Shown: piece after piece, positions 150 through 44,330 of the stretch | Layout: every line of letters begins with the position of its first letter | Numbering within the stretch: position 1 is the first letter of the stretch | Assembly: GCA_026988515.1 (NCBI GenBank) | Contig: JALSLA010000064.1 | Coordinates: forward strand, 1 to 44,728 | Source: Helicobacteraceae bacterium | GTDB taxonomy: Bacteria > Campylobacterota > Campylobacteria > Campylobacterales > Sulfurimonadaceae | Direction of reading: 5' to 3' | DNA length: 44,728 bases | Position numbers and translations under genes: made by a program | The notes under the pieces: model-generated | The model's database searches: none | The model's input: the letters and a program-made list of their open reading frames with translations, nothing else | What the model was told of the DNA's origin: nothing

Positions 150-3100
150 ATGAGAGACTTTTTAAAGTTATTGGGCTCCATGAAAACCATGGCAGTACTG
201 ATGCTGATTTTTGCTGTTGCAATAGGGTATGCAACATTTATTGAAAATGACTACGGTACGATGACCGCCAAAGCAGAGGTTTATAATGCGTTGTGGTTTG
301 AGTTACTGCTGGGACTGTTGTCGGTAAATTTAATATATAATATTATTCAATATAAAATGTATCGGAAGGAGAAGTTTTTAGTTTTTTTGTTTCATGTGTC
401 ATTTTTGGTTATCCTTGTTGGCGCGGCAGTGACGCGCTATATCGGTTACGAGGGGATCATGCACATTCGTGAAGGTGAAACCAGCAATACTATGGTGAGT
501 TCAGACAGTTTTGTCAGCATCAGCGTTACAGAAAACAACCGTACGACAACCTTGCAAAAGCCTGTATTGCTTTCAAAATATTCCAGCAACCGTTTTGAAA
601 CGACGGTAGAAAATTTACATGTAAAATTAATAGATTATATTCCCAATGCAGCCTATGTTTTAGTAGATGATGCTCAAGGAAAAGCCATACTGAACCTGAT
701 GATAACCAATGACAAAGTTCCGACACGGGTTCAGCTTGAAGAGGGCGATTTTTTTGAATCCGATGATCTCATTCTCGATTTTAACTCCGGTAATGCATTT
801 GCGGGTACGAAAGAAATTATTCACATTACTCTTGAAGGAGGGCTGCCGAAAATGCAGCATCCGATGGCATTGAACTACCTGCGAATGGATGATAAGGTAA
901 GCGGTGAGCTAAATGCTTCGAGTCGCCAAACATTTGAAACGCGAACACTGTATACTGCGAACAATACCAATTTTGTATTGCGTGATTTTAAACTTCATGC
1001 CACTAAAAAACTTGTATCGGCAACCGTGGGGTCGGGAATGAATAATCGTGAAAGTGACGCGCTTGTTTTTGAGGTCGGTAACGCCGATGTATCACAAAGA
1101 TTTAGCGTTTTTGGAGCAGCCGGTACCTTAGGAAAGGCCGTAACACATTCTATTGCGGGCAAAGAGGTCTCTATTGCCTACGGTGCACGTATTATTGAGC
1201 TGCCGTTTTCGTTGTACTTAAAAGATTTTCAACTCGATCGCTACCCGGGTTCGATGTCACCCGCGTCGTATGCGAGTGAAGTCGTGTTAATTGATGAACG
1301 TCACGATCTCAAGCGGCCGTTTCGTATTTATATGAATCATATATTAAACTATGAAGGATTTCGGTTTTTTCAATCTTCTTACGATATGGATGAAAAAGGT
1401 ACCGTACTCTCTGTTAACAAAGACCCCGGAACGCTCATTACCTACATTGGCTATACCATGCTGACTATAGGAATGTTTCTATCGCCGTTTCTCTTACGCG
1501 GACGCTATCGTAAACTCAATGCAAAGGCAATGAAAGCGGCGCGTGAGCATCAACGTATTGCAGCGATATTTATGATGGTACTGGCAGTTTTTGTCGCAAC
1601 GCCGAGTAAGGCGGAAGCACTGAATCCTATTGTTGAAGAGGTGCTTTCGTTTAACAAGGAACATGCGGATCATTTTGGACGATTGATTGTTCAAGACACT
1701 GCCGGCCGAATGAAGCCTATGGATACGTTGGCATTAGAGGTTGTCAATAAGATTTACCGCTCTGAGAGTATTATGGGGCTCGATGCCAACCAGGTACTTT
1801 TGGGAATGATGATGGCACCGAAAGCATGGCGTGAGATTCGCATGATCAAAACGTCGCATAAAGAGATCAACAACATTATTAACATTAAAGAGGGGAAAAA
1901 AACGGCCTCTTTTTCACAATTTTTTGAATTTCCCGATACGTTGGAAGGGTACAAGTTAGCAACCTATGTCGATGAAGCAACACGAAAATCGCCGGGGAAA
2001 CGTAATAAGTTTGATAAAGCGGTATTAAAAGTAGATGAACGTGTCAATATTGCTTATATGGCATATTCAGGCTCTTTAATGAAAATATGGCCACGTCCGA
2101 ATGATAAAACTCATAAATGGTATGCAACGATTGACGCATTAAAGAACTTTGAAACCGTAGATTCTGAAGGAATCCGAGCTATTGCTATGAACTATTTTAC
2201 GGCAGTCGATGAAGCACGTCACAACGGAGACTGGAGTCGAGCTGATGCGGCCTTGGCGAATATTGAAAAATACCAGCACTTTTACGGCGTTGCCGTTTAT
2301 CCGGATGCGATGAAAGTGGATTTGGAAATTTGGTACAACCATGCACAGCTTTTTGAACGGCTCTGGCCACTTTACTTTTTAGTGGGTTTTGTGCTGCTGA
2401 TATTGTCGTTTGTTAAGATTATGAAACCCTCGTTCCGTATTGCATGGGCATCGAAGAGTGCTTTGGTGCTGCTCATACTCTTTTTTATGGCACACACGGT
2501 CGGTTTAGCCATTCGATGGTATATTTCAGGACATGCCCCGTGGTCCAATGGTTATGAGTCGATGATCTATATTGCATGGGCAACGGTATTTGCCGGTTTT
2601 ATTTTTGCTAAAAATTCGCCCATTACCTTGGCGTCTACCAGTATTTTAACCGGACTTATTTTATTTGTAGCGCATCTGAATTGGATGGATCCTCAAATTA
2701 CGACCTTGGCGCCGGTACTTAATTCTTACTGGCTGAGTATTCATGTTTCTATTATTACGGCAAGTTACGGCTTTTTGGGACTGGGGGCGCTGCTTGGATT
2801 TATTACGCTCATTCTCTTTATTATCAAAAATCCTGCCAATGCGCGTAATATCTCACTCTCTATTAAAGAGCTCAATGCCATTAATGAAATGAGTTTAATA
2901 ATCGGTCTGATTTTGCTGACAGTCGGAAATTTTATGGGAGGCGTTTGGGCCAATGAGAGTTGGGGACGCTATTGGGGGTGGGATCCTAAAGAGACCTGGG
3001 CATTGGTTACCATTTTGGTGTATGCCGTCGTCATTCATTTGCGTTTTATTAAATCACTCTACTCTGACTATATTTACAGCGTAGTGTCACTTTTGGCATT

Positions 3101-38022: not shown

Positions 38023-39144
38023 TTGAAGATTGTACATTTTTCAGATACGCATTTAGGTTTTAGTGACTTGGACATTACAAATGATGCAGGTATAAATCGG
38101 CGTGAAGCAGATTTTTACAAAGCATTTGCAGATGTGATTGAAGCTATTATGAAACTAAAACCTGACTATGTTATTCATACGGGTGATCTGTTTCATCGTG
38201 CCTCTCCCTCAAATCGTGCTATTACTTTTGCACTGACACAGCTGAAAAAACTTGAAATACTAAAAATTCCTTGCATTATCATTGCAGGCAATCACTCGAC
38301 ACCCCGTACTTCTACATCGTCACCTATTTTGGAGGCATTGGGTACGTTAGATCATGTCAGAGTCGTTTTCAAACAGAAGTATGAAACAGTGGAGTTTAGT
38401 GACATTGTTTTTCATGCATTGCCTCATATTAATGACGAGCGTATTCTCTCTGATGAACTGGATAAAATCGAAGCATCCATTAACCCAAATAAAAAAAACA
38501 TTTTAATGATGCACTGTTCCGTAGGTGCGCACTATCTTATGCATGAGTTTGGGGAGTGGGTCTATCCCAAAGATAGAGAAGATATATTTGAGAAGATGGA
38601 CTATGTGGCATTGGGGCATTGGCATGGCTTTGGTACTGTAGGCAAACATCCCAATGTCTGCTACGCAGGTTCTACAGAACGCACAAGTAGCAGTGACAAA
38701 CGAGACAATAAAGGCTATGTTCTTTTAGACTTAGAAGATGAAGTAACCATTACACATTACACGATACCTTTGCGTAAATCCCTGACTTTTACGATAGATG
38801 CAGACAAATACGAAGAAGAGACAGCTTCACTTGACCTCTCAGAGATTTCAGATGCGCTGGTAGAAGTGAAGCTTATTAACCTGACGGCATCAAGCTCCAT
38901 AGACATTACCAACAAAGCCTTGGCCGATCTGTTCAAAGAGGCGTTGCATGTCAAAGTCAAACGAGAGTTTAAAGTCGTAGAGGGTGAGCAGATAGAGGGC
39001 AATATGGAGTCTATCTCGTTGGAGTCCTATTTTATTTCACACATACAAGAGAGCATAATAGACAAAGCAGAACAAGATAGACTGACACTTAAAGCCAAAG
39101 AGCTGTTTGCACTTTATGATGAGGTTGACGATGATACTCACTAG
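38023..39144 (+). CDS. sbcD: Exonuclease SbcD (Mre11 family)
   Basis: Mn-dependent nuclease of the SbcCD complex, which opens hairpins and trims blocked double-strand ends. The 373-residue protein has the Mre11 phosphoesterase motifs FSDTHLGFSD (residues 6-15), HTGDLFHRASPSNRA near 52-66, IIAGNHSTP near 86-94, MMHCSVGAHY near 163 and ALGHWHGFG near 198-206. The start is TTG at 38023 with AAAGGA eight bases upstream, the only frame-start near that site. It overlaps sbcC by 14 bases. Confidence 0.93.
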   Translation: MKIVHFSDTHLGFSDLDITNDAGINRREADFYKAFADVIEAIMKLKPDYVIHTGDLFHRASPSNRAITFALTQLKKLEILKIPCIIIAGNHSTPRTSTSSPILEALGTLDHVRVVFKQKYETVEFSDIVFHALPHINDERILSDELDKIEASINPNKKNILMMHCSVGAHYLMHEFGEWVYPKDREDIFEKMDYVALGHWHGFGTVGKHPNVCYAGSTERTSSSDKRDNKGYVLLDLEDEVTITHYTIPLRKSLTFTIDADKYEEETASLDLSEISDALVEVKLINLTASSSIDITNKALADLFKEALHVKVKREFKVVEGEQIEGNMESISLESYFISHIQESIIDKAEQDRLTLKAKELFALYDEVDDDTH

Positions 39145-41497
39145 CCTCCACATGCAAAACTACAAAAAGTACCGTGACTATACACTGGAATTTGTCGAGG
39201 GTTTGACGGGGATTATTGGTCGTAACGGTTCGGGTAAATCTACCATTTTTGACGCCATTACCTTTGCACTCTATGGCGATGTACGAGGCGAGAAAGAGAC
39301 TATTCGCTATGCCAAAGCAGGTGACAAAGATGCCGTATGCGTCACACTGCTTTTTGAGATAGAGGGCAAGAGCTATAAAGTAGTCCGAGAGATGCGAGGC
39401 AAGTCGCTGACAGCCAAAGCGTATCTCTATGATGGTGACAACGCACTCATAGCAGAGAGTGCCAGAGGGGTGACGAGTGAGATCGTAAGACGCATTGGGA
39501 TGAACCGAGATGCTTTTATGCATACGGTCTTTGCTTCACAAAAGGAGCTTACGGCTCTAAGTGGATTAAAAAATGAGGACAGGAAGAAGATTATCCGTAA
39601 ACTTTTGGGGCTTGAGAAGATAGACAAGATAGAGACCGAGATAAAAATGAAACTGAGAGTCTTGAAAAATGAGATAGACGCTGTGGGTGCAGTACTGTTG
39701 TCCGCAGAAGAGGTTAAAAAGTATGAAGAGGAGAAAGAGGCGAAAAGCAAAGAGGCCAAAACTCTTATAAAAGAGGTAGCAAAGGTTGAAAAAGCGTTTG
39801 AAGTCAAGAGTAAAGAGCTGGATGCTTTGGACAAAGCAGTAAAAGCCTTGCAAAAACTCAAAGAGGATTTTGTTAAGCTGGGGTCTGATCTTGACCTGCT
39901 TAAAAAAGGGCTTGAAAATCAAAAAGCCAACTTGGCAAAAGGGCAAGAAAGGCTGAAAGTCCTACAGACAAAAGCGATGCAGTACGAAAAAGAGAAACCG
40001 CTCATAGACGAGTATAAAACGTTTGAAACCACTATAGTGAACTTACAGAAGCAAAAAGAACTTTTTTTAAAGAAAGAGGGGTTGGAAAAAGAGCAGGCTG
40101 TACTTCGCAAACAGTATAAGCAAGATGAAAAAGAGATAGAAGCACTCAAGAAAAAACTCCAAGCCAAACCAGCGCTGTTAAAAGAGCAGGAAGAACAAAA
40201 CAGATTGTTGCAATCTTCTCTATTCAAAGTAAAAGAGTTGGAGTCCAAAGAGAGTACGCTCAAACAGGAGATAGCCAAATACAATGGTCTTATAGAAAAC
40301 ACCAACAAACAAGTAGCCAACATCGAAGCCATAGGCAAAGACTCCAACTGTCCTACCTGCACGCGTCCACTGCTCGATGAGTACGACAATGTCATCGCAT
40401 CTCTCAAAGAGAGCATCACAACGCTGCATAATGACGAGATAGCCAAGAGAGAGACAATACTCAGCAAAATTGTAGCACTTAAAAAGAGTGAAGAGGATGG
40501 CAAGAGAAAAGTAGAAGAGGTATTGAAAACATTGGGCGAAAAACTTAGTGTACTCAGAGCAGATGAAGCAACACTCAAAACCAAAGAAGAAGAGTTCAAA
40601 AGCATTACTGAGACAGGGTTGAAGAACAAAGAAGCCCTTGATGCACTCAAAGAGCTAACGTATGATGCACAGGCACACAGTGATGCTTTGGCGAAAAAAG
40701 AGAAGCTTGAGCCTAAGTACAAAGAGCTGCTGGGGCTTGTAACACTCATCGCACAGATACCTGCACTGGAAAATGAGTTAAAAGCTACAGAAGCAAGCAT
40801 TACTCAAAGCCAAGAGCGTATTAAGAAACAGGAAAAAGCCATAGCAGAGCACAGCTATGATGCCACAGAGCATGAGAAACAGGTAAACCTGTATGATGAG
40901 GTACTTCGGACAAAAACAACCATACAGACGAAACTCTCAGAAGAAAAAGTGAAGCTAAAGGGTGTAGAGGGCGAGATAGTTACGCTCAAAAGCAAACTAA
41001 GCAGAAATGAAGAGCAGAAAAAACAGCTTCAAGCCAAGCTTAATGACAAAAACGACTACGACAAGCTCAAAGCTTTCATGGGTGAGTTTAAAAACAAAAT
41101 AAACTCCCAGATAGCCCCACGCATTAGCCAGCTTGCAAGTGAGATGTACGGGACTATCACCCGAGGGAAGTACCAGCACATAGAAGTGAGTAATGAGTTT
41201 GACTTCTTCATCTACGATGACGGCGTACGCTACCCCATAGAGCGTTTTTCCGGTGGAGAGGTTGACCTTGCCAACTTGGTGCTTCGTATTGCCATTTCCA
41301 AGACACTTAGTGAACTGAGTGGCAGTGGCGGGGTTGGCTTTTTGGCGTTCGATGAAGTGTTCGGCAGTCAAGACGAGGAGCGGCGTTTTGAGATTATGGA
41401 AGCGTTTCATACCATCAAAGAGCAGTATCGGCAGATATTTCTTATTTCTCATGAGAGTGAGATTAAGGAGATGTTTGAGAGGGTAGTGGAGCTGTGA
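39131..41497 (+). CDS. sbcC: Exonuclease subunit SbcC (Rad50-like SMC ATPase)
   Basis: ATPase partner of SbcD. The 788-residue protein has an N-terminal Walker A IIGRNGSGKSTIFDAITF near 28-45, two long coiled-coil arms, the zinc hook CPTC at C407 and C410 almost in the middle, the ABC signature FSGGEVDLANL near 706 and Walker B GFLAFDEVFGSQDEERR near 735. I chose ATG 39131 (MILTSLHMQNYKKYRDY) because it gives the usual Rad50 N-terminus; ATG 39107 adds eight residues. A plausible operon partner, trlF, follows after 28 bases. Confidence 0.95.
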   Translation: MILTSLHMQNYKKYRDYTLEFVEGLTGIIGRNGSGKSTIFDAITFALYGDVRGEKETIRYAKAGDKDAVCVTLLFEIEGKSYKVVREMRGKSLTAKAYLYDGDNALIAESARGVTSEIVRRIGMNRDAFMHTVFASQKELTALSGLKNEDRKKIIRKLLGLEKIDKIETEIKMKLRVLKNEIDAVGAVLLSAEEVKKYEEEKEAKSKEAKTLIKEVAKVEKAFEVKSKELDALDKAVKALQKLKEDFVKLGSDLDLLKKGLENQKANLAKGQERLKVLQTKAMQYEKEKPLIDEYKTFETTIVNLQKQKELFLKKEGLEKEQAVLRKQYKQDEKEIEALKKKLQAKPALLKEQEEQNRLLQSSLFKVKELESKESTLKQEIAKYNGLIENTNKQVANIEAIGKDSNCPTCTRPLLDEYDNVIASLKESITTLHNDEIAKRETILSKIVALKKSEEDGKRKVEEVLKTLGEKLSVLRADEATLKTKEEEFKSITETGLKNKEALDALKELTYDAQAHSDALAKKEKLEPKYKELLGLVTLIAQIPALENELKATEASITQSQERIKKQEKAIAEHSYDATEHEKQVNLYDEVLRTKTTIQTKLSEEKVKLKGVEGEIVTLKSKLSRNEEQKKQLQAKLNDKNDYDKLKAFMGEFKNKINSQIAPRISQLASEMYGTITRGKYQHIEVSNEFDFFIYDDGVRYPIERFSGGEVDLANLVLRIAISKTLSELSGSGGVGFLAFDEVFGSQDEERRFEIMEAFHTIKEQYRQIFLISHESEIKEMFERVVEL

Positions 41498-41525
41498 AAA
41501 AATATAATGAGGGGGAGAAAACTAA

Positions 41526-44330
41526 ATGATAAATAATGGTTCTGAATGGAGAAAATGGGATTTGCATGTACATACACCAGAGTCAATTGTTCATGAATAT
41601 AAATGTAATCAAGATGAAGATATTTGGGACAAATATATAACTGAACTTGAAAATTTGCCATCTGATATAAAAGTTTTAGGTATTAATGATTACTGGTTTT
41701 TAGATGGCTATAAAAAAATAAAAAAATATAAAGAAGAAGATAGAATAAAAAATATTGATTTGGTATTACCAGTTATTGAGTTTAGATTAAGAGATTTTGT
41801 TGGAAGTTCACAACTAAACAAAATAAACTATCATATTATCTTTTCAGATGAGTTATCAATTGAAGAGATAGAAGAAGAGTTTTTAAAAAAACTTGAAATG
41901 ACAGAATATGAAAATCGTTCTTTAACAAGAGATAATTTAATGGCATTTGGGAAAAAAGTTAGAGATGATACACCATTAGACAAGAGGGATACTTTACCAT
42001 CATCGGATTTGCAAGTTGGATTTAATAATTTTACTATTCCTTTGGATAAAATAGATACATTGTTACAAAAAGATTTATTTAAAGATAAATATATAAGAGT
42101 GATAGGGCAAACTGAATGGAATGATTTTAGATGGGATGGTAGTCCAAGTGATAAAAGAGCTTTAATAAATGGTGTAGATTTTGTTTTTTCTGCTTCACCT
42201 ACTGTAGATAGTGCTTTACAATCGAAGCGAAAGTTAGTAGAGCAAGAGGTTAATGATTGTTTACTTCACTGTAGTGATGCACATCAATTTAGTGATGCTA
42301 CACATACAAGTAAAGTACTTGGGCATTGTTATACTTGGATTAAATCAGATACAACATTTGAGGGTCTTAAGCAAGTTATTTATGAGCGACAAAGGTTAAA
42401 ATTATCCGAAACAAACCCTAATCAAAAGAATAGTTATCAATATATAGACAATATAAAACTACACGACGATGGTAATCTTTTTGGAGAACAAATTATAGGT
42501 TTAAGTTCTGATCTTAATGCTATTATAGGTGGAAAATCTTCAGGCAAATCTTTACTATTATATCATTTGGCAAGAACTGTAATGAACCTTGAGAAGTTTA
42601 ACCAAATTTCTCAAATTGAAGGGTTTCAAACATATGGTAATTTACCATCTTTTGAATTAGAAGCAAAATGGGCTGATGGGCATATATCTAAGTTAAGTGG
42701 CAGGGATGACAAAAGACCAATAGTTTATATACCACAAATGTATCTAAATTATATGGCAGAAAAGAAAAGTAGAAATGAAGACTTTAAGCAAACCATTGAT
42801 GATATATTAAAAACTAATGATGGGTATAGTGATTTTATAAATTCTAAAAAACAAGAAATATTAGAATATGAGCAAAGGATTGATAATGGTATAAGAGAAT
42901 ATTTTTCTAACCTGCAAAAGCTAAATATTTTAATTCAAGAATTAAACCAATTAGGTGATAAAGTAGCAATTCAAGTTAATATAGAAAATATAAAGTCTGA
43001 TTTGGAATCTTTAAGAAGTACAGCAGGATTTACCGAAGAAGAAGTATCTACCTACAAGGAACTACAGCAAAATAATCAAGAAATTGTCGGGCGTAGAGAT
43101 ATATTAAATAAGAAAAAAGAATTATTAAATAATTTAAATCAAAAATTAGATCAAATTAAGGGAAAAATTCCTGCATTCATAGATGAGGAATTTAGTGATA
43201 TTAAATTTAATTATCAAGATGAAGAGTTTCAAGAATTTATATCAACAACTATTCATCAAATCAGTACAAAACTTAATGCTTCTTTAGAAGAATATTTGAA
43301 TGGAAATCCTTTTGTAGCAACTGATATTGACACTGAAATAGAACAGATTAATAATACAATAAATCAAAATGATGTAAAACTTAAACCATTAATTGAAAAA
43401 ATTCAAAATTTAAATGCTTTAAGAGCTAAAGAGAAAGAATTATCTGTAGAACAAGATAAAGTTAAAACTATAGATTTAAAACTTCAAGAGATAGAATATC
43501 AAACTCAACAAGTAAATATTCAATCTGTTCTGGATAATTATCAAAATTTATTTAATTGTTATTCTGAGATTGTAGAAAAGCATGAGGAATACAAAAAAAT
43601 ATCCGAATCAATTGATTTAGTAAGTGAAGTTGCTTTTAATAAAGAGTTTTTTGAAAGAGACTTCAGTAATTATATAACAAAGAATAGAAGTTTAGAGAGT
43701 ATTTTTGCAAATTGTGGATTTAGAGCCAATGAGTATCTTTTCAATAAAGATGAACATGTAAATAAGATTCAAACGATTTGCAACATTATTTTGGATGACA
43801 ATCAAGGAGAAATTAGTTTCAATCAATCTAAAACAAAAGAAGAAATTATTAGATCTCTTTTTAAAAATTACTTTGATATATCATATGATTTAATGCAGGG
43901 AACAGATAGGCTTGGACAAATGTCTCCAGGCAAGAAAGGAATAATACTATTTCAATTATTTTTACATATGAGTTCATCTCAAGACCCGATTTTAATAGAT
44001 CAGCCAGAAGATAATCTTGACAATAGAACAGTTTATAAAGAACTAAATGATTTCATAAAAGAGAAAAAGATTCAAAGACAAATTATTATAGTCTCACATA
44101 ATTCAAATTTAGTTGTTTCAACAGATTCTGAAAATGTTATTGTTGCACACCAAAACTCAGATGGGATAAGCCCTAAGTTTGAGTATATAAATGGTTCTCT
44201 TGAAGATACTTTTTTGAAAGAAAATGAAGAGCATATCCTAAAAAAACAGGGAATACGAGAGCATGTATGTGAAATTCTTGAAGGTGGAGTTGAGGCCTTT
44301 AAGAAAAGAGAAAAAAAATATAATATATAA
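41526..44330 (+). CDS. PHP-domain / SMC-like ABC ATPase, TrlF-family type
   Basis: A 934-residue fusion of a PHP phosphoesterase domain and an SMC/RecF-like ABC ATPase, matching the TrlF-family AAA-like ATPases of prokaryotic conflict systems. PHP domain (about 1-290): WDLHVHTPES with H14 and H16, GINDYW with D55 (His of the usual TDH replaced by Tyr), E85 in PVIEF, H103 in NYHII, and HCSDAH at 248-253. ATPase: Walker A GGKSSGKS near 334-341, long coiled coils (about 420-720), signature MSPGKKG near 799, Walker B PILIDQPEDNLDN near 821 and switch VSHNSN near 857. A GAGGGGGAGA site precedes the ATG. Base composition is far more AT-rich and arginine codons mostly AGA, unlike the neighbours, so recent transfer is likely. 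Nuclease activity and a defence role are inferred. Confidence 0.8.
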   Translation: MINNGSEWRKWDLHVHTPESIVHEYKCNQDEDIWDKYITELENLPSDIKVLGINDYWFLDGYKKIKKYKEEDRIKNIDLVLPVIEFRLRDFVGSSQLNKINYHIIFSDELSIEEIEEEFLKKLEMTEYENRSLTRDNLMAFGKKVRDDTPLDKRDTLPSSDLQVGFNNFTIPLDKIDTLLQKDLFKDKYIRVIGQTEWNDFRWDGSPSDKRALINGVDFVFSASPTVDSALQSKRKLVEQEVNDCLLHCSDAHQFSDATHTSKVLGHCYTWIKSDTTFEGLKQVIYERQRLKLSETNPNQKNSYQYIDNIKLHDDGNLFGEQIIGLSSDLNAIIGGKSSGKSLLLYHLARTVMNLEKFNQISQIEGFQTYGNLPSFELEAKWADGHISKLSGRDDKRPIVYIPQMYLNYMAEKKSRNEDFKQTIDDILKTNDGYSDFINSKKQEILEYEQRIDNGIREYFSNLQKLNILIQELNQLGDKVAIQVNIENIKSDLESLRSTAGFTEEEVSTYKELQQNNQEIVGRRDILNKKKELLNNLNQKLDQIKGKIPAFIDEEFSDIKFNYQDEEFQEFISTTIHQISTKLNASLEEYLNGNPFVATDIDTEIEQINNTINQNDVKLKPLIEKIQNLNALRAKEKELSVEQDKVKTIDLKLQEIEYQTQQVNIQSVLDNYQNLFNCYSEIVEKHEEYKKISESIDLVSEVAFNKEFFERDFSNYITKNRSLESIFANCGFRANEYLFNKDEHVNKIQTICNIILDDNQGEISFNQSKTKEEIIRSLFKNYFDISYDLMQGTDRLGQMSPGKKGIILFQLFLHMSSSQDPILIDQPEDNLDNRTVYKELNDFIKEKKIQRQIIIVSHNSNLVVSTDSENVIVAHQNSDGISPKFEYINGSLEDTFLKENEEHILKKQGIREHVCEILEGGVEAFKKREKKYNI

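Follow-up and report, generated by a model that had tools for sequence, protein, structure and literature searches.

The window, that is the whole stretch of 44,728 nucleotides analysed here, carries sbcD and sbcC directly upstream of trlF on the same strand, in an operon-like arrangement (Table 1). The original observation that trlF follows sbcC on the same strand at a distance of 28 bases was confirmed by the position of the sbcC stop codon and by the uninterrupted trlF reading frame. The product of sbcD matched the Mre11/SbcD profiles of NCBIfam, and an sbcD that is 51-74% identical precedes sbcC at nearly all related loci. For sbcC, translation more likely begins at an in-frame ATG at 39131.

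Table 1. Features at the sbcDC-trlF locus, in positions of the window
Feature	Position	Strand	Support
sbcD (Mre11-like nuclease, 373 aa), gene 1 of the operon frame	38023..39144	+	Metallophos PF00149, 2.5e-16
sbcC (Rad50/SMC-like ATPase, at most 796 aa)	39107..41497	+	AAA_23, 3.4e-19; Rad50/SbcC NCBIfam
sbcC-trlF junction, 28 nt	41498..41525	+	
Shine-Dalgarno-like AGGGGGAG, ahead of the trlF ATG	41510-41517	+	
trlF, intact ORF, 934 aa, cargo of slot 1	41526..44330	+	NF045780, 512.6 bits (cut-off 350)
PHP-fold domain, aa 1-300	41526..42425	+	Domain model, pLDDT 87, pTM 0.88
Walker A GGKSSGKS, aa 335-342	42528..42551	+	
Predicted coiled coil, aa ~434-687	42825..43586	+	Secondary structure in model
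ABC signature SPGKKG (aa 800-805), Walker B ILIDQPEDNLD, H-loop H858	43923..44099	+	
Probable DUF2779 remnant (LILEMPEAYKKLDGVH), ~18 codons	44425..44478	+	Matches DUF2779 residues ~427-446
pepA 3' stub, 219 nt, at contig end	44510..44728	-	

The TrlF family profile NF045780 was matched over its entire length (positions 1-944 of 944), and the window protein has the domain order of that family. Together with the ATPase motifs and the predicted fold, this upholds the earlier view that the protein fuses a PHP domain to an SMC/ABC-type ATPase with a coiled coil. The ATPase is complete, with Walker A, signature, Walker B and H-loop, and the segment PILIDQPEDNLD (amino acids 821-832) lies among these motifs. 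In the model of the full-length protein (pLDDT 81) the heads and the coiled coil match the structures of SMC, Rad50, MukB and Wadjet JetC. The scores with the profiles of Ppl (NF042955, 87.4 bits, E 5.9e-25, cut-off 1000) and of the Spaf_1101 family (NF045781, 113.5 bits, cut-off 475) stay below the respective cut-offs.

The PHP domain was undetected by sequence with the Pfam profile PF02811, by which it had been proposed to be checked, but a PHP fold was found by structure comparison. The top matches of the isolated domain model were RNase AM and the PHP domains of DNA polymerase III alpha, and the first ten structures were all of the RNase AM or DNA polymerase III PHP type. Among the metal-binding residues suggested originally, H14, H16, E85 and D251 do not vary across 24 homologues, and H103 and H253 are common; D55 does not count among the standard ligands. 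In the profile alignment, the motif-II histidine of YcdX (H40), a metal ligand, falls opposite Y56. This indicates that the PHP site of TrlF is only partly canonical; a metal site, though reduced, is plausible. A sequence search of the PDB gave no useful match for the whole of TrlF and a weak match of the PHP profile to YcdX, and a search of PHROGs with TrlF gave nothing convincing. A tRNA-cleaving role like that of PrrC or RloC was considered and dropped, as no domain of that kind was matched by the window protein; AAA_13 proteins are found behind sbcC in other genomes instead.

The low G+C content that had been noticed by eye is real: trlF has 27.5% G+C (16% at third codon positions, GC3), against 43.2% (48%) for sbcC. 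The bias towards AGA and TTA was likewise confirmed, as AGA accounts for 23 of 33 arginine codons and TTA for 49 of 88 leucine codons, compared with 8 of 33 and 5 of 92 in sbcC. The GC3 of trlF (0.16) is the lowest among the 24 ORFs of more than 250 aa in the window (next 0.35, median 0.395). Within the family, 10 of 228 genomes encode a TrlF that scores over the cut-off, as do 20 of 397 within the phylum, and three genomes of the same genus have neither TrlF nor an sbcDC of the window type. The nearest TrlF to the window copy is 58% identical and comes from a different genus and a different place. The restricted occurrence of trlF in the family, its absence from the same-genus genomes and its foreign composition support its acquisition by transfer, as had been predicted. 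Nor do the relatives all carry the gene at the same site with matching codon usage, TrlF being present at 9 of 98 sbcC loci. Matches to TrlF were also found on 715 plasmid records, mostly conjugative and mostly enterobacterial, and on the one plasmid examined the gene lies beside those for an ATP-binding protein, a UvrD-type helicase and an Abi protein. TrlF is thus mobile and able to keep the company of defence genes. A prophage origin is not favoured, because no place in the phage records covered 80% of TrlF.

An sbcC of the window type is present in 57 of the 228 family genomes. For the comparison of what follows it, 98 distinct sbcC loci were used, 65 of which extend 5 kb or more beyond sbcC. 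In 43 of these 65, a gene of at least 150 aa lies on the same strand within 400 nt. This position, referred to as slot 1, is occupied by TrlF, Gabija (found twice), Lamassu, a Hachiman-like HamA-HamB pair, an OLD-like protein, SIR2-HerA, Qat, an AAA_13 protein or no cargo. Further occupants are Hel308/HamB-like, NACHT and Roc-COR proteins, a RelA/SpoT protein and an AbiL-like ATPase, and certain sbcC loci are followed by non-defence genes (a Fer4 protein, an Mrp antiporter). The 29 identified defence cargos are all encoded on the same strand, at a median distance of 23 nt, and every one of them has a lower G+C content than its own sbcC (mean 0.275 versus 0.396). As a control, the region upstream of sbcD was inspected at 29 loci: none of 171 proteins is such a cargo, apart from one weak match of 98 aa. 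The location of trlF behind sbcDC stands, but its description as a single-chain analogue beside a two-chain system is incomplete, since the slot also takes unrelated defence genes. Probably, trlF lies behind sbcDC because this position is, in these bacteria, an operon slot at which many different defence genes have come and gone.

Copies of the sbcC 3' end, 93-147 nt long and 86-92% identical, follow the first genes that lie downstream of sbcC in G194, G106, G062 and L275. Counted from the end of sbcC, direct copies lie at +1064..1165 and +3749..3775 in L286 (G194), +1071..1216 in L288 (G106), +1024..1144 in L266 (G062) and +2991..3083 in L275; several times they adjoin a RhuM-family gene. A direct duplicate of the sbcC 3' end was sought inside the window and not found. 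These copies may be traces of cargo entry, and point to recombination at this place.

Comparison of the loci shows that the slot is part of a recurrent putative operon of Campylobacterota, with the order sbcD, sbcC, slot 1, DUF2779, slot 2 and dGTPase, on both chromosomes and plasmids. The cargo is repeatedly followed by a gene for a DUF2779 protein of about 494 aa and then by a dGTPase-like gene. Among 36 close DUF2779 genes counted as distinct, 30 have sbcC upstream in the same-strand run, members of a divergent SbcCD lineage included, a figure that is partly biased as many of these loci had been fetched with sbcC; the dGTPase gene lies behind in 14. A fairer count came from a search that used DUF2779 alone: 8 genomes had a window-type SbcCD on the same contig, and a divergent SbcCD (SbcC of 1026-1194 aa) was present at 7 of 12 further close DUF2779 loci. 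Slot 1 is empty at two loci with divergent SbcCD (L289, L291). No DUF2779 gene was found within 13 kb at 44 of the 65 well-covered sbcC loci. This gene order is also that of plasmids of Aliarcobacter and Arcobacter, on which slot 1 contains Qat, SIR2-HerA or an AAA_13-type gene and slot 2 a helicase or other genes. An intact example in one run is the Aliarcobacter cryaerophilus plasmid pACRY43158 (L309, 1-16713), which encodes sbcD, sbcC, a set of Qat-type anti-phage genes, DUF2779, a helicase, an uncharacterised gene and the dGTPase. The interval between DUF2779 and dGTPase, slot 2, holds helicases or other genes at L051, L309, L310, L311 and L297.

DUF2779 (PF11074) has been placed among the RNase H-like proteins; it contains a DUF83/PD-(D/E)XK part and is presumed to be a 3'-5' exonuclease (PMC3985635); a defence role of DUF2779 proteins was not found in the literature searched. 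A paper on an Arcobacter plasmid lists the frame genes without comment on any system (PMC6690266). A published description of a defence-slot operon of sbcDC, DUF2779 and dGTPase was not found in a search that was thin on subscription papers and preprints. The TrlF of the window adds one member to an established family; the modular operon is, as far as the literature shows, undescribed.

TrlF lies directly behind an sbcC of the window type in the window and in G070, G076, G218, G451, G500, G517, L222 and L279, and behind a divergent SbcCD in G574, making 10 intact cases. In G066, a TrlF-like gene is situated behind a 58-codon remnant of sbcC. The gap between sbcC and TrlF is 13-46 nt in most loci, and 184 and 352 nt in two. 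TrlF was directly behind sbcC in 8 of the 24 genomes with a TrlF over the cut-off, all of which came from searches that did not use sbcC; three of these 8 are single-contig genomes (G218, G451 and G574). The sbcC-linked proteins are scattered on the TrlF tree, with 8 changes, at least 7 of them forced by well-supported branches. This indicates that TrlF was joined to sbcDC many times.

Behind the trlF of the window a short segment resembles part of the DUF2779 proteins (Table 1). Nearly all intact DUF2779 neighbours match it at the same residues and in the expected orientation, with nucleotide identities of 77% over 53 nt (L210) and 84% over 38 nt (L067). The DUF2779 profile gave 7.1 bits, a score reached by 2 of 2000 shuffled segments. 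No intact DUF2779 was found in the genome of the window, and no dGTPase-like ORF was found behind trlF before the contig end, where the true downstream sequence is uncertain. Short as it is, the segment is, in view of its position, probably a DUF2779 remnant; the genome would once have had the standard operon and lost DUF2779, and the window operon would be a decayed copy. The adjacent pepA stub shares 98% identity with a complete pepA that lies on another contig of this genome (C79) and has different flanks, and may reflect a contig-end artefact, a strain variant or mixture, or a duplication. The sbcC-pepA interval, proposed originally as the frame for neighbourhood comparison, was found to be untrustworthy and was dropped, pepA being only a stub with a second copy elsewhere.

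Operon order, interchange of cargo, repeated entry of TrlF and foreign composition all emerge directly from the comparison. It is likely that trlF belongs to the interchangeable cargo genes that occupy the variable slot of a modular defence operon, and that, by analogy with Ppl, its PHP domain is gated by the ATPase; we infer that TrlF may protect against phages, as a candidate effector. Its closest characterised relative is Ppl, reported to be a single-stranded DNA 3'-5' exonuclease that is inhibited by NTPs, is freed when a phage drains nucleotides and needs 3'-OH ends (PMC12904381). As TrlF would, Ppl combines a PHP nuclease and an NTPase in one chain, and the C-terminal ATPases are homologous, although the similarity (87 bits) resides mainly in this ATPase end. 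From the same two parts and the homologous ATPase, TrlF is expected to be a PHP nuclease that works under ATPase control at the ends of phage nucleic acid. The SMC-like heads and coiled coil would respond to DNA ends or to the nucleotide state and so control the PHP domain. The latter would then degrade nucleic acid, in the most likely case single-stranded DNA from its 3' ends, as reported for the distant relative Ppl. Expression of trlF could occur by read-through from the sbcDC promoter. Processing of ends by SbcCD, trimming of 3' ends by DUF2779 and draining of dNTPs by the dGTPase would, speculatively, fit such a trigger.

The family NF045780 was presumably named after trlF of Photorhabdus, in which the gene lies beside trlR and trlG in the trl operon, whereas the window trlF lies beside sbcDC. 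The Photorhabdus study found no mutations in trlF and showed no role for TrlF (PMC7554251), and nothing on TrlF function beyond that operon paper was found in the literature. The direct neighbour SbcCD (Mre11-Rad50) likewise pairs a nuclease with an SMC-type ATPase; unlike TrlF, it consists of two chains, has a metallophosphoesterase instead of a PHP domain and is a DNA repair enzyme. As a single place for many alternative defence genes the sbcC slot resembles the cDHS of Pseudomonas aeruginosa and the hotspots of P2/P4 phages. It differs from hotspots beside core genes in that it lies inside a same-strand operon bounded by nuclease and dNTPase genes, occurs also on plasmids and is framed by proteins that are themselves candidate defence enzymes.

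Could the slot be a passive docking site? Recombination, homologous or site-specific, would then be directed to the conserved 3' end of sbcC and let defence genes build up behind it, and the cargo would function without any part played by SbcCD. We give this somewhat less than an even chance. The C-terminus of sbcC (EIKEMFERVVEL) is near invariant, the copies of the sbcC 3' end and the remnant before the TrlF-like gene of G066 agree with such a route, and defence hotspots beside core genes are known (PMC10250203). However, the gene order, including DUF2779 and dGTPase behind the slot, persists across two divergent SbcCD lineages, no integrase was identified, and a passive site does not require the strict strand and the short gaps of the identified cargos. 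Cooperation with SbcCD, or guarding of it, is favoured only slightly over passive docking. In the case of guarding, TrlF and the other cargos would monitor SbcCD (or DUF2779) and be triggered once a phage has blocked it, as has been proposed for Gabija and RecBCD. Several cargos are ATPases that sense DNA ends or the state of repair, and Gabija was reported to act against phages that antagonise RecBCD (PMC12407980; PMC12904381); yet the same cargos also occur without sbcDC, and we consider this specific form rather unlikely.

It is very improbable that TrlF serves SbcCD as an accessory nuclease in repair and is not a defence gene. Its operon-like position behind sbcC and its SMC-type ATPase fold could be read in that way, but its distribution is patchy, its composition foreign and its place interchangeable with unrelated defence genes, and on conjugative plasmids, where it is often found, it has once been seen beside defence genes. 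Still more remote is the notion of a native trlF with a low G+C content due to relaxed or biased codon use. All measured sbcC-linked TrlF genes are AT-rich, which is possibly a trait of the family; against this stand the absence of the gene from the same-genus genomes, a GC3 by far the lowest of the window, and the nearest TrlF residing in another genus at another place.

Beyond the preferred reading of trlF as exchangeable cargo, SbcCD, the DUF2779 nuclease and the dGTPase may form a common defence chassis into which slot genes are plugged as effectors or sensors, which we propose tentatively and hold to be somewhat less probable than its opposite. Phage DNA ends would be made or processed, dNTPs drained and modules exchanged within one immune operon. 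Should the frame work jointly with its cargo, numerous defence systems now catalogued apart would have SbcCD, DUF2779 and dGTPase as shared partners within a single phylum, and the slot could serve to discover new ones, the uncharacterised genes in it being candidates. Even with passive docking, a sharply bounded defence hotspot would be defined by sbcC. The repeated sbcDC-trlF pair makes the function of TrlF directly testable, including whether Mre11-Rad50 feeds defence ATPases or is guarded by them.

Some related arrangements were noted. An RmuC gene (~626 aa; Pfam-tested in L293) replaces sbcDC in L293, L062 and L063 and is followed by SIR2-HerA or a TrlF-like gene, and in L293 then by DUF2779 and dGTPase. 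A second clade of DUF2779, about 45% identical, follows a GmrSD_N (PF03235) pair and not sbcDC (L306, L307, L308). A Selenomonas plasmid set of ATPase, metallophosphoesterase and DUF2779 was rejected as a distant copy, its ATPase being an AAA protein with an AAA lid and not SbcC. In two genera a 175-aa protein without a Pfam match is encoded between TrlF and DUF2779 (L200:11327-11854 and L056:11478-12008). About two thirds of the TrlF genes lie elsewhere, without adjoining sbcDC, and some of those share a downstream partner of 384-395 aa (L057, L058, L059, L198, L201).
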